Of a stretch of DNA of 64,000 nt, positions 1 through 5,242 are shown piece after piece. The stretch's first letter is position 1. Each line of letters opens with the position of its first letter. A program made the position numbers and the translations under genes. Origin of the DNA: Methylocystis sp. B8. Its GTDB lineage: Bacteria; Pseudomonadota; Alphaproteobacteria; Rhizobiales; Beijerinckiaceae. Where the stretch lies: the NCBI RefSeq assembly GCF_005771425.1, contig NZ_VBTZ01000007.1, positions 1 through 64,000 of the forward strand, in the 5' to 3' direction. The notes under the pieces are model-generated. The model saw nothing but the letters and a program-made list of their open reading frames with translations. It was not told the origin of the DNA and searched no databases.

Positions 1-528
1 CAAGAACTCGACGATCTCCTGCAGATCCTCCTTGGCTTCGTCGACGCCGGCGACGTCTTCAAATGTGACGCGCCCTTGCGTCTCGGTCAAAAGCTTCGCT
101 TTCGACTTGCCAAAGCCCATCGCGCCGCGACCGGCGCCGCCCTGCATCTGACGCGCCATGTAAATCCAGACGGCGATGAACAGCAGCAGCGGCAGTCCGT
201 TGACCAGCAGAGTCGAGAGCCAACCGGGACTATCATTTGCAGGTTTGGCGCTGATCTGCACCTTCTTGGACTCAAGCTTCTGCACGAGCCCCGGATCATT
301 CGGCGCATAGGTCGTGAAGGAGCGATTGTCGTTGAAGTGGCCGGAAATCTCGTTGCCGGAGATCGTCACATCGTGGATGCGCCCTTCGTCAATCTGCACC
401 AGCAGTTCGCTGAAGGTGATCTCGCGCGCGGGCGTACGGGTCTGCTGGTGTTGGAAAAGTCCAAAAAGCAGCGCCCCGACGGCGACAAAGACGACCCAAG
501 GCAAATATTTCTTCCAATTCGCCTTCAT
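1..528 (-). CDS. ftsH: ATP-dependent zinc metalloprotease FtsH (N-terminal part, cut by window edge)
   Basis: This is the first 176 codons of FtsH, the inner-membrane AAA protease that degrades misfolded membrane proteins and regulatory proteins. The start ATG at 526-528 lies five bases after a GGAGG ribosome-binding site at 534-538. The visible part begins MKANWKKYLPW and has a first membrane segment at about residues 7-25. A periplasmic domain follows, then a second membrane segment at about residues 105-125, then GKSKAKLL and FEDVAGVDEAK, which lead into the AAA module. The ATPase and HExxH protease domains lie outside the window. The gene is divergent from the LOV/AraC regulator across 168 bases that must hold both promoters. 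The family is clear; only the truncation limits what can be said. Confidence 0.95.
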   Translation of the reverse strand, partial: MKANWKKYLPWVVFVAVGALLFGLFQHQQTRTPAREITFSELLVQIDEGRIHDVTISGNEISGHFNDNRSFTTYAPNDPGLVQKLESKKVQISAKPANDSPGWLSTLLVNGLPLLLFIAVWIYMARQMQGGAGRGAMGFGKSKAKLLTETQGRVTFEDVAGVDEAKEDLQEIVEFL

Positions 529-696
529 TTTCACCTCCATGACGGAGCCGTGGCGGACCGGCGTCGCGTCAACATGTATGCATCCTTGGCCGGCGGCGCA
601 TTGGGCGCGGCTAGCCGAGGATGAGATTAGAAGTAATCTAGGTCAGGATGGCGCAATCGCCAAACAAGGTTCATAATTCGCCAAAAGCAGAGGCGG

Positions 697-2163
697 ATGC
701 GTAAGATCGTCCTTGCCGGCTTAAACGAATGCCTGGGCTCGGCTTTCTCTGGGCTGTCAGACATTTTGTCGCTCGCCAGGCGCGCAATCGTCCGCGCCGG
801 CGCGCCCGCGGAAAGCGCTTCAGATCCATTTATCGTTGTTGCTGCGAGCCCTGATGGCGAGGCGGTCCGCGATCGTTCAGGCGCAAGCTTCCCTGTCGCC
901 GCTTCCTTCGAGGCTATCGAGACCTGCGACGCCATTATCGTGCCGAGCTTCTCGCCAGACGCGAATGGCAGGCCGCCGGACATGTCCCCTTTCAGCGCGA
1001 CCGCCGCTTGGCTGCGTCGCCATCACGCGCGCGGCGCTTTAATCGCCGGTTGCGGATCAGGCGTATTTCTTCTTGGCGAGGCTGGCCTTCTGGAGGGTCG
1101 CCGCTGCACGACGAGTTGGCGGGATTATGAGGAGCTGAAGCAGCGCTATGCGAGGGTCGACGCCGCCTGGAGCGCGCGGTTGATCGAGGACCGTCGAGTC
1201 GTTACGGCGGCCGGCCCATTTTCCTGGATCGACGTCGCTCTGCATGTCGTTCGCACGCTTTGCGGGGCGGATGCGGCGCGGGTCGCTGCGGCATTCACCG
1301 TCGGCGAGGCGGCGCCTGCCAAGGGCGCGCATCACGGTCAAAATTCCTACGCCGCAACGACGCTGAACGCGGGAGCAAGCGCCTTTCTCGCCGACGCCGA
1401 ACGAATTGTTCGCCAATCGGATGCGTTGATGAGCGCTCAGGAACTCGCACGAGCGCTTTTAACGTCGGAGCGAACGTTGCATCGAAAGCTCAAGCAGGCT
1501 TGCGGAGAGTCGCCGAAGACATTCATCGACCGGATACGCGTGGAAACTGCGCGCACGCTGCTCGAAACAAGCGCCAAGCCAGTGAAAGAACTCGTCGCGA
1601 GCGCGGGATTCGCGGACGAAGCGAGTTTTCGACGCGCTTTTCGGCGGTTCGCCGGAATGGCGCCGAGCGCCTACCGGATATGGGCCCGCGCCCGAAGCCA
1701 GAACAAAGGCCAGCTCTTCACCCTGCAAAAGGACGCTGAGGTCGTCTCCAAGCTTCTGACGACCATATTCGACGCCTGCGTCAATGGCGTTACGCTCGCA
1801 GACCCAGACCTCGAAGATACGCCTATCATCTATGCCAACCGGCCCTTCACACGGATAACCGGCTACGGGCTTGATGAAATCATAGGACGTAACTGCCGCT
1901 TTCTTCAGGCCGAAGATCGCGACCAGGAGGGAAGACAGCGGCTGCGCGAAGCAATCCTCAATCGTGAACAAGTCGAAGTCACTTTGCGCAATTACCGCAA
2001 GGACGGCGCGCTCTTTCACAACAGGCTCAACATCACCCCACTCTTCGATGCGGACGGCCACCTGTTGTATTTTCTTGGCGTGCAATATGACGTCAGCAAT
2101 CAGGTGCAGGCCGAACTGGAAATTGGCGACCTCAGGGCGAAGCTGCTGTCGCTCACTGAGTAA
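697..2163 (+). CDS. GlxA/AraC-type transcriptional regulator with C-terminal LOV (blue-light) domain
   Basis: A 488-residue three-part protein. Residues 1 to about 200 resemble the DJ-1/PfpI-like sensor half of GlxA regulators, with the nucleophile-elbow motif GCGSG (Cys119) followed by LLGEAGLLEGRRCTTSW. Residues about 235-330 are a double helix-turn-helix DNA-binding domain of AraC type, ending FRRFAGMAPSAYR. Residues about 349-465 are a LOV-type PAS domain with the signature GRNCRFLQ. Cys400 is the expected flavin-adduct cysteine, and Gln404, Asn432 (NYRKDG), Asn442 and Gln463 match the flavin contacts known for LOV proteins. A short helix follows. An AGAGG site sits just upstream of the ATG. 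The family suggests a DNA-binding regulator; that light controls it is inference. No obvious target gene is adjacent apart from divergent ftsH. Confidence 0.9.
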   Translation: MRKIVLAGLNECLGSAFSGLSDILSLARRAIVRAGAPAESASDPFIVVAASPDGEAVRDRSGASFPVAASFEAIETCDAIIVPSFSPDANGRPPDMSPFSATAAWLRRHHARGALIAGCGSGVFLLGEAGLLEGRRCTTSWRDYEELKQRYARVDAAWSARLIEDRRVVTAAGPFSWIDVALHVVRTLCGADAARVAAAFTVGEAAPAKGAHHGQNSYAATTLNAGASAFLADAERIVRQSDALMSAQELARALLTSERTLHRKLKQACGESPKTFIDRIRVETARTLLETSAKPVKELVASAGFADEASFRRAFRRFAGMAPSAYRIWARARSQNKGQLFTLQKDAEVVSKLLTTIFDACVNGVTLADPDLEDTPIIYANRPFTRITGYGLDEIIGRNCRFLQAEDRDQEGRQRLREAILNREQVEVTLRNYRKDGALFHNRLNITPLFDADGHLLYFLGVQYDVSNQVQAELEIGDLRAKLLSLTE

Positions 2164-2959: not shown

Positions 2960-3844
2960 TCAGTATTTCGCAACGACCGGGGGCGCGCCCCAGTTGAAGT
3001 GATAGTTCACGCCGGCGCGAACGATATTGCCGTTAAATCGGGTCGAGAACTGCGATATTGAAACGACGGTCCCCGCAAGACCGACGTTCACCGCAGATCC
3101 CGCGGCAGTGCCAAGATCGTAATACAGATATTCCGCTTTTGCCGACCAATTGGGCCAGAACATCCATTCGATTCCGCCACCGGCTGTCCAGCCGACGCGC
3201 GTGTCCGAGAGGCTGCCTGCTCCGAATTGAGCGGGAATGATTAAGCCGCCCAACGTCAATGCCTGAAAATTGCTCACGTTGACGTTGACGCCGCCATAAG
3301 CGAGGCCACCAGTGCCATAAACGAGCAAGGTCGGCGTGAAGAGCCAGCCAAGGCGCCCCCGCACCGTACCCAGGTAGTCAAGCGACCTCCGTACGTTAAC
3401 ATTCGAGAGAAGATTAATCGGAACAGGCGTGTCGCCAATAGTTATGGTAGCGATCGGAACGGCAGCCCAAGAGTTGCTGCCACCCCTGGAGCCGGCAATG
3501 CCCTGAATGTCCGCCTCAATGCCCGCGACAAGGCTGCCATTGTAAAATTGCCAATTGTAACCGATCTGGCCGCCGCCGATGAAACCGGCGCCGTTATTTG
3601 CGGACAGACTGCCGCTCAACAGCAGGTTCGCGACGCTGAAAGCCCCGCCCGCCGGCCAGTTCGTCACATAGATTGAATTGTTATTCGCCCAGGTTCCGCC
3701 AGCGTTCAGACCGACATAGAAGCCCGTCCATAGCGGCGGAGGCGGCGGGGGCGGCGGCAGCGGCGCCTTGTAGTGGGGAAGATCGGCCGCAAGGGCCGTG
3801 CCGGCGGTCAACACGAGAGCCAGTGCGGTAAGTATCTTTTTCAT
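2960..3844 (-). CDS. Outer-membrane beta-barrel protein, copy 1
   Basis: A 294-residue secreted protein of the Omp25/Omp31-like beta-barrel type common in alphaproteobacteria. The start ATG at 3842-3844 follows GAGGATTGAG; the frame stays open further upstream but without a better site. The signal peptide MKKILTALALVLTAGTALA is followed by ADLPHYKAPL, a run of eight prolines and LWTGFYVGLNAGGTWAN. Alternating strands and turns follow, and the protein ends in an aromatic residue (VVAKY), as expected for barrel insertion. It is a paralogue of the next gene: the first 35 mature residues and the last 20 are nearly identical, while the middle, probably surface loops, diverges. Its function beyond outer-membrane structure cannot be read from the sequence. 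Confidence 0.9.
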   Translation of the reverse strand: MKKILTALALVLTAGTALAADLPHYKAPLPPPPPPPPLWTGFYVGLNAGGTWANNNSIYVTNWPAGGAFSVANLLLSGSLSANNGAGFIGGGQIGYNWQFYNGSLVAGIEADIQGIAGSRGGSNSWAAVPIATITIGDTPVPINLLSNVNVRRSLDYLGTVRGRLGWLFTPTLLVYGTGGLAYGGVNVNVSNFQALTLGGLIIPAQFGAGSLSDTRVGWTAGGGIEWMFWPNWSAKAEYLYYDLGTAAGSAVNVGLAGTVVSISQFSTRFNGNIVRAGVNYHFNWGAPPVVAKY

Positions 3845-4052
3845 CTCAATCCTCACTGCCTGGGCAAAAAAGACTTTGCCTGATCCGCTGCTATGAAACC
3901 CCAGCAATTGCTGGCCGTAAGCGCAATCAAGCGACCAACGATGCGCACAGTCAACGCGTGAATATGAGATTCGAAGTGGGCGGAAGCTCATTTTCGAAAA
4001 GTGTTGCGCAGAGGCAACAAACGCACAATCGTCGGCGCCGAAAGCCCAAAAC

Positions 4053-4081
4053 AAAATCCCGGCCTTTGGGGCCGGGATTTT
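4053..4081 (-). terminator. Intrinsic terminator between the two outer-membrane protein genes
   Basis: AAAATCCCGGC pairs with GCCGGGATTTT around a short loop. On the minus strand it is followed by TTTTGTTTTG-like sequence. It lies 22 bases past the stop of outer-membrane protein copy 2, so each copy probably has its own transcript. The near-perfect symmetry would also allow function on the plus strand. Confidence 0.8.
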
Positions 4082-4103
4082 AACTACAGACTCTTTCGGT
4101 CGA

Positions 4104-5021
4104 TCAGTATTTCGCGACGACCGGGGGAGCGCCCCAGTTGAAGTGATAGTTCACGCCGGCGCGCACGATGTGGCCGTTGAAGCGGGCGCTGGACTGCAAA
4201 AAGTTGGCGAACGCAGCGCCTGTAGGAGAGCTGGCGATCGACACAGCCGACGAGGTCACCGTGCCAAGGTCATAGTAGAGATACTCGACCTTAGCGCTCC
4301 ACTTCGGCATGAACATCCACTCCAAGCCGCCGCCGGCCGTCCAGCCAACGCGGGTGTCGGCAAAGGAAGACGCGCCGAACCAGCTGGTGAAGGGAATGGG
4401 CGAGGGGATCGGCGCGCCGACCACGCTGAAGCCTGTCCGCACGCCGCCGTAGGCGAGACCGCCGGTGCCGTATACTAAGAGAGTAGGCGTGAACAGCCAA
4501 CCAAGGCGGCCGCGGACAGTGCCGATATAGTCCAAGCTCTTTGACACGCTGATGCCTTGGAAGGCATTGAAACCAGCAACAAATCCACCGGCGGTAACCG
4601 GAACTGCGGTGAAATAAGCGTTCCCCGAGCGACTGCTCGCAATGCCTTGAATGTCAGCCTCGATGCCGGCGAGGGCAGCCCCGTTGTAGAACTGCCAATT
4701 GTAGCCAATTTGGCCGCCGCCGATGAAGCCCCCGTTATTGGAGGTTGAGAACACGCCGCTAGCGCCGAAGGCGGCTGCGGTGGCAGGCCCAATGGCGACC
4801 AGACCACCAGCAGGGTCTATGACGAGCGGAGCGTTCGAAAGCGTTAAGCGGTTGCTATTCGCCCACGTTCCGCCCGCGTTCAGGCCGACGTAGAAGCCGG
4901 TCCAAAGCGGCGGGGGCGGCGGCGGGGGCGGCAGCGGAGCCTTATAGTGGGGGAGATCGGCAGCGAAAGCTGAGCCCGTCAGCGCAACCGCCAACGCGGC
5001 GACGGAAAGAGTTCTCTTCAT
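4104..5021 (-). CDS. Outer-membrane beta-barrel protein, copy 2
   Basis: A 305-residue paralogue of the neighbouring barrel protein. The start ATG at 5019-5021 is preceded by the same GAGGATTGA ribosome-binding context as copy 1. The signal peptide MKRTLSVAALAVALTGSAFA leads to the same ADLPHYKAPL and proline run, then WTGFYVGLNAGGTWANSN. The C-terminus NWGAPPVVAKY is shared with copy 1. Internal repeats of the barrel type occur (QIGYNWQFYNG and RGRLGWLFTPTLLVYGTGGL in both copies), and the loop regions differ in length and sequence. The 200-base upstream gap to the PAS gene should hold its promoter. Tandem duplication followed by loop divergence is the simplest history. Confidence 0.9.
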   Translation of the reverse strand: MKRTLSVAALAVALTGSAFAADLPHYKAPLPPPPPPPPLWTGFYVGLNAGGTWANSNRLTLSNAPLVIDPAGGLVAIGPATAAAFGASGVFSTSNNGGFIGGGQIGYNWQFYNGAALAGIEADIQGIASSRSGNAYFTAVPVTAGGFVAGFNAFQGISVSKSLDYIGTVRGRLGWLFTPTLLVYGTGGLAYGGVRTGFSVVGAPIPSPIPFTSWFGASSFADTRVGWTAGGGLEWMFMPKWSAKVEYLYYDLGTVTSSAVSIASSPTGAAFANFLQSSARFNGHIVRAGVNYHFNWGAPPVVAKY

Positions 5022-5242
5022 ATCAATCCTCGTAGCTTGTATGCGCATAGGCCGAACTGCCCTTTTGAAGCTTTCGGCGATTGCTCGCCTTGCACTGCAC
5101 TCAATCAGTCAAGGGCGCGCACAGTCAACGCAAAAGCTCTGGTTTTCGTTGGAGTTCAGTCGGATTTCCGCGCGGTGTGGCGCCGGCGCCACAATACGCG
5201 CCCGAGGGCTTTCGCCACGGAAGACCCGACCGCCAGACCCGT

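Follow-up and report, generated by a model that had tools for sequence, protein, structure and literature searches.

The gene at positions 697..2163 (+ strand) of the window, by which we mean the 64,000 nucleotides of Methylocystis sp. B8 analysed here (contig NZ_VBTZ01000007.1, positions 1 to 64,000), encodes a 488-residue regulator in which a DJ-1/PfpI-like domain, an AraC-type helix-turn-helix (HTH) and a LOV domain follow one another. The open reading frame, a Pfam search and comparison with relatives identify it as an orthologue of the published McLOV-TF. We consider it probable that, within a family of DJ-1/AraC one-component regulators linked to pmoC in Methylocystis, this protein is the member that senses light, and that it controls its own gene, the neighbouring ftsH, and the pmoC that lies beyond ftsH. 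The preliminary description of this DNA had named no target genes; the prediction of three targets, which takes the place of that statement, is drawn from gene order and from repeated operator-like sequences.

The Pfam search of the 488-residue chain found DJ-1_PfpI at residues 46-186 (E = 4.3e-12), HTH_18 at residues 250-327 (1.6e-23) and PAS_9 at residues 371-467 (2.4e-20), all with scores above the curated cut-offs, and no match to GerE. Together with the open reading frame, this confirms the earlier proposal that three domains are joined in a single chain. On the DNA, the DJ-1/PfpI-like domain occupies 832..1254 (+), as judged from Pfam, alignment and Foldseek, the HTH_18 domain 1444..1677 (+), and the LOV domain with its caps (residues 350-482) 1744..2142 (+). 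For this last segment the best solved relatives are LOV proteins (3sw1, E = 5.7e-33). A direct check showed that Cys400, Gln404, Asn432, Asn442 and Gln463 stand where the preliminary description had placed them, with Cys-to-Asn spacings of 32 and 42. The NCRFLQ motif, which carries the adduct cysteine, is kept in 22/22 LOV domains of the regulators of the genus, and a cysteine turn in the N-cap (Cys361 in B8) is conserved across the aligned LOV domains. An AlphaFold2 model was calculated from an input of 24 rows, seven of these being LOV-less paralogues. Foldseek with this model returned as top matches isocyanide hydratase, DJ-1-like proteins and AraC-family regulators (3gra, 3er6). The LOV part of the model is poor (pLDDT blocks of about 30-67), and the LOV assignment is therefore based on sequence.

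The three-domain architecture is not new. According to the available passages of PMC4416707 (2015), it occurs in Methylocystis (Rockwell and M. rosea, McLOV-TF / McLOVr-TF) and represents a LOV transcription factor. The B8 protein resembles McLOV-TF in having an amidotransferase-like domain, an AraC HTH and a C-terminal LOV domain in the same order, in coming from the same genus, and in its high identity over the full length (84% over 488 residues with the orthologue of M. rosea SV97). The same passages report that flavin binding, bleaching in blue light and recovery in 130 s were seen with a LOV construct of residues 337-490 (337-TF), that the isolated LOV domain of McLOV-TF forms an adduct and is dimeric already in the dark, and that the full-length protein is insoluble; they also note the N-cap cysteine. 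The preliminary description was right in recognising an AraC/DJ-1 regulator that carries a LOV photosensor, and by analogy with the isolated domain of the orthologue, the LOV domain of B8 is predicted to bind flavin and to form a light-induced adduct. Its further proposal, direct activation under the control of blue light, is kept here as a prediction. The preliminary description had also said that an architecture already well described with a different role would refute it. This applies in part: the architecture has been in print since 2015, but the passages attach no tested role to it, name no DNA target and describe no DNA-binding experiment.

Two other types of regulator are worth comparing. 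The DJ-1/PfpI-AraC regulators of the FtrA/GlxA type share the DJ-1 half followed by HTH_18, and over residues 52-329 there is a match to the FtrA model at 5.9e-44. They differ in that the B8 regulator has an additional LOV domain and has lost the cysteine at the DJ-1 elbow, and its score of 150.6 bits is far under the curated cut-off of 425 for the FtrA equivalog (NF006902). In EL222 the LOV domain is N-terminal to a HTH of the LuxR/GerE type, and the protein dimerises on light. The B8 regulator is likewise a one-component LOV transcription factor, but its LOV domain comes after the AraC HTH, a difference correctly noted in the preliminary description, and the LOV domain of its orthologue is a dimer in the dark.

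The regulator chain is no chance product of a single genome, being found in 22 of the 39 genomes of the genus, B8 included, in 21 of them at full length and in one (G225) cut by the contig end. Full-length relatives at 82-84% identity occur in Methylocystis rosea SV97, Methylocystis sp. H62 and L43, M. suflitae and a Methylocystaceae MAG, and another MAG carries one at 69%. The architecture search proposed in the preliminary description located the fusion within Methylocystis/Methylocystaceae only, among the matches listed: none of these fell outside the genus in 199 genomes of the family, in 397 of the order (E up to 1e-40) or in 398 of the phylum (E up to 1e-30). A scan of 84,980 species, which detects close relatives only and could miss distant fusions, gave eight loci, all from Methylocystis/Methylocystaceae except for one LOV-only match in Ectothiorhodospira. 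The latter is a short LOV frame of Ectothiorhodospira shaposhnikovii (L008:5959-6447), 60% identical to the LOV domain of B8 although the genus is far from Methylocystis. Within Methylocystis the sequences suggest that the gene has been lost repeatedly, since relics with internal deletions are found in G201 (L177) and G205 (L261), a broken relic is found on a short contig of G219 (L262), and in G222 the operator described below remains, with no match to the regulator in 8 kb.

The N-terminal part of ftsH lies at 1..528 (- strand), identified from its sequence and its relatives. It starts at 528, or at 540 if an upstream ATG is used, and is cut by the contig end. It is divergent from the regulator in 18/18 fetched loci (17 regulators and the G201 relic). 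Beyond ftsH, and in the same direction, a gene for methane monooxygenase subunit C (pmoC, identified through PF04896) is present in 11/11 loci whose contigs extend that far, the remaining seven of the 18 contigs stopping inside ftsH. In G200 this pmoC is 5.4 kb away, and in G216 it is itself cut by the contig end. The earlier statement that ftsH is the only divergent neighbour does not hold: it reflects the beginning of the B8 contig inside ftsH, and relatives have pmoC beyond it. In B8, another contig (C23) opens with the C-terminus of a pmoC and is colinear, at 81-86%, with the DNA behind the linked pmoC in four relatives (G177, G203, G204 and G201). The assembly is broken here, the contig of the window (C24) starting and C1 ending inside ftsH frames, and C12 and C23 ending in a pmoC fragment, as would be expected if near-identical copies could not be joined. 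In G164, which has no LOV regulator, the ftsH-pmoC pair is preceded, according to Pfam, by genes for a LuxR-type regulator and an autoinducer synthase of the LuxI type (L186:1837-3402), as if this unit had come under another control.

A link between the two genes has been noted before. The available text of PMC3794950 describes ftsH1 of Methylocystis SC2 as adjoining a monocistronic pmoC, an arrangement like that near the regulator loci, and its authors speculated on quality control of pMMO. The words 'AraC' and 'light' do not occur in the main text of that paper, and no paper tying this type of protein to pmoC, ftsH or methane oxidation was found among the matches listed from the open-licence literature.

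Alignment of the upstream regions revealed two copies of TCGCCAAA between the regulator and ftsH, here termed candidate operator box A (657..664, +) and box B (678..685, +), which are exactly 21 bp apart. The GCCA core of box A and the spacing to box B are both kept in 21/21 sequences, B8 included. In all 21 regulators with upstream sequence, the GCCA direct repeat lies within 90 bp of the start codon at the exact 21-bp spacing, and dinucleotide shuffles (300 each) produced such a pair in 0.27% of regulator promoters. The B8 repeat has the form of an AraC-type operator, in which half-sites in direct orientation are separated by two helical turns and lie near a promoter. An inverted repeat seen by eye, TGGCG-CAAT-CGCCA (649..662), overlaps box A and is kept in many, but not all, of the orthologues. 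Among LOV-less paralogues that face pmoC, 13 were tested and 12 also have a GCCA pair at 21 bp (shuffles 0.41%); this count excludes six other aligned paralogues with no pmoC opposite them, and two, in L133 and L193, that face one.

Read on the - strand, positions 657..683 form a 27-bp candidate operator directed towards ftsH, which in a pattern scan is an exact match to a pattern common to this site and the pmoC operator. The consensus is TTTGGCGAATTATG-N7-TTTGGC towards ftsH, and TGGCGG-TT-TGC, with TTGGCGACAAAGTCAC following 21 bp on, before the linked pmoC. The pair stands before the linked pmoC in 11/11 loci with a regulator or relic (one being a relic) as against 0/3 without, and before ftsH in 9/9 tested loci with a regulator or relic as against 0/4 without. 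In the three pmoC loci that have no regulator the flanking DNA can still be aligned, with a difference in the distal box; the DNA upstream of ftsH in loci without a regulator is altogether different. The loci without regulator and operator represent two lineages only in an unrooted FtsH tree, and the independent support for an association between operator and regulator is therefore modest.

Across the 39 genomes of the genus, the 27-bp pattern with at most one mismatch gave 66 matches, compared with 1 for the backward pattern. Of these, 24 are in the gap between regulator and ftsH (relic loci included), 11 are before the linked pmoC, 2 are before a paralogue-type pmoC, 7 are at a third recurrent place, and 22 are elsewhere with no evident link. 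The 3.4-Mb genome of B8 has exactly two matches, C24:657-683 and the gap between paralogue and pmoC on C25. Since the paralogue site was known before the pattern was written, the scan is a measure of how rare the pattern is and not an independent discovery. The pattern misses the pmoC box of G207, which is degenerate. Operators persist in G201, G205, G219 and G222, where the regulator has decayed or was not found, so that the presence of a site does not prove its use.

Other forms and places of the motif were considered and set aside. A first form, consisting of two TCGCCAAA with up to 2 mismatches, had 22 matches in the B8 genome and 1 backward, the known match alone being exact, and the 27-bp pattern took its place. 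The data give no support for a general control of pmoC genes. Of 20 further pmoC upstream regions, from five genomes, four contain a pair of GCCA or TGGC cores spaced by 21 bp, a point against the preferred reading: L204 at -569, L205 at -261, L210 at -263, and L220, which by eye resembles a paralogue-type locus. The third recurrent site (L258:3249 and six other genomes) precedes a 202-residue protein with no Pfam match, and in G203 and G177 its distance from the regulator is about 23-25 kb. It is absent from the B8 window at up to 3 mismatches and occurs in G224 too, a genome in which the search found no LOV regulator. It was not counted as a target.

On the basis of these observations a mechanism can be proposed. 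The regulator chain would dimerise, and its AraC domains would bind two TTTGGCGA-like half-sites 21 bp, or two helical turns, apart, at one operator between the regulator and ftsH and at a second before the pmoC beyond ftsH. An automatic promoter scan found no sigma-70-like site in the upstream region, and the -35/-10 layout was therefore judged by eye. Towards ftsH, TAGATT (635..640, -) may be a -10 element, 17 bp from a possible -35, TTGGCG, in box A. Box A would overlap this -35 with box B lying 21 bp upstream, which is the classic layout of an AraC-type activator. Towards the regulator, CATAAT (672..677, +) may be the -10 of its own promoter, and the two boxes would flank it in a layout suited to autorepression. 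Blue light would produce the Cys400-flavin adduct in the C-terminal LOV domain, and this would most likely alter the geometry of the dimer and thereby raise the expression of ftsH and of the spare pmoC. Because the LOV domain of the orthologue is dimeric in the dark, light should change the geometry of the dimer rather than create it. We infer that the regulator binds DNA, that it regulates ftsH and pmoC, and that the response depends on light in the cell; its sign, a rise of ftsH and pmoC in the light, is proposed with low confidence.

The LOV-less paralogues are 47-53% identical to the regulator over the shared part and face other pmoC genes. Ten of 12 paralogue loci are divergent to pmoC; L135 is on the same strand as pmoC, and L137, from another genus, has no pmoC nearby. 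L132 and L133 resemble copies of one another. Five further paralogues (L190-L194) are also divergent to pmoC, ftsH follows the paralogue-linked pmoC in L132, L133 and L190-L192, and some loci contain a second paralogue that does not face pmoC. Over the HTH region the B8 regulator and the LOV-less pmoC-linked paralogue of B8 are 59% identical, and by eye their putative recognition helices are nearly the same. A difference is seen at the DJ-1 elbow, which is Cys in 19/19 aligned LOV-less paralogues and Gly in 21/21 LOV-bearing regulators (G225 lacks this region). In B8 the residue is Gly120, with Cys119 one position earlier, and 19 of the 21 LOV regulators have a cysteine there. The elbow cysteine is regarded here as a trait of the pmoC-linked paralogues of the genus, and is not taken to define DJ-1/AraC regulators at large. 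The preliminary description had suggested a second sensor domain and the integration of two signals. The extra domain is present, and is DJ-1, but integration is doubtful because the LOV-bearing proteins have Gly where the paralogues have Cys. It is a natural but unproven reading of these sequences that the family exchanged a DJ-1 cysteine chemical sensor for a photosensor.

The paralogues also suggest other ways of viewing the regulator. It might mainly answer a chemical signal through its DJ-1 domain, as its LOV-less relatives would, with the LOV domain merely modulating the output. Light is not required for the basic job of the family, since LOV-less members face pmoC with the same operator spacing; the uniform replacement of the elbow cysteine in the LOV-bearing members nevertheless makes this explanation unlikely. 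Alternatively, the LOV regulator might control only itself, and the repeats before ftsH and pmoC might serve the LOV-less paralogue or some other factor. These sites could also be used by a LOV-less paralogue that shares a genome with the regulator, and the paralogue's own promoter matches the pattern with one mismatch. Against this, G164, a genome with LOV-less paralogues and no LOV regulator, lacks the pmoC repeat, and we consider the proposal highly improbable. The LOV domain might also sense redox or flavin state rather than light, as has been suggested for fungal ENVOY with its N-cap cysteine. The conserved turn at Cys361 would agree with such a role, but the adduct-forming Cys400 motif is equally conserved (22/22) and the LOV domain of the orthologue photocycles, according to the available text of PMC4416707, which makes a sensor of this kind decidedly unlikely.

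A further proposal, made in the available text of PMC4416707, is that a short LOV protein pairs with the LOV domain of the regulator and tunes its output by competitive dimerisation, like VIVID and White Collar-1 in fungi. Both proteins are dimers in vitro according to the same text, and short LOV proteins are commoner in genomes with the regulator (17/22) than in those without (6/17; the match in G201 is partial), with a Fisher p of 0.011 that is uncorrected for kinship. Of the 39 genomes, 17 have both, five have the regulator only (B8, G227, G202, G209 and G207), six have the short LOV only and 11 have neither. A dedicated search found no short LOV gene in the B8 genome, whose completeness is given as 100%, and the next best LOV-like match there is a 902-residue frame at 32% identity. 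The published model therefore cannot hold in B8 as stated, unless the assembly misses the gene, and the four other genomes with the regulator alone point the same way. In addition, in 19 short-LOV loci the 500 bp upstream of the gene contain no operator-like site (up to 3 mismatches), and the flanks of up to 5 kb on each side hold neither pmoC nor ftsH nor a regulator gene. We thus regard competitive dimerisation as quite improbable. The preferred reading, of a light-sensing regulator of its own gene, ftsH and pmoC, departs from the account of McLOV-TF in these passages both in having no short LOV partner in B8 and in adding a candidate operator and the linkage to ftsH and pmoC.

Two further ideas about the short LOV genes were rejected. 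They are not decayed copies of the regulator, since residues 1-335 have no independent match in the 19 loci, and earlier alignments had crossed stops. Nor are they counted as targets, given the upstream regions described above; the closest match to the pattern, with 2 mismatches, is about 1.6 kb behind the gene in L095. By eye, at least two sequence groups can be told apart among the short LOV proteins of the genus, LNITPL..VRAE and LVVKPL..VKAQ; one of each is present in some genomes, G017 among them.

If a blue-light regulator controls both FtsH and a spare PmoC, this would agree with a role in repairing or adjusting pMMO in the light. In photosystem II, repair is driven by FtsH. By extension, it is conceivable, and we suggest it tentatively, that a blue-light receptor directly governs the upkeep of pMMO, with light raising both FtsH, to clear light-damaged pMMO, and spare PmoC for rebuilding, in a bacterial counterpart of the repair of photosystem II. 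The available text of PMC7362727 cites both inhibition and stimulation of methane oxidation by light, and notes that light inhibits ammonia oxidisers, in which the ammonia monooxygenase is a relative of methane monooxygenase; that of PMC12211021 also mentions light inhibition. If the proposal is true, these disputed effects gain a genetic basis and become testable in a culturable methanotroph, and optogenetics gains a LOV switch of natural origin that is built on an AraC scaffold and has a defined operator. Genome editing is reported for Methylocystis parvus in the available text of PMC9942187.

It is worth adding that at 2960-5048 the window contains two similar genes in tandem, which by eye resemble those of outer-membrane proteins and have a run of prolines near the N-terminus.
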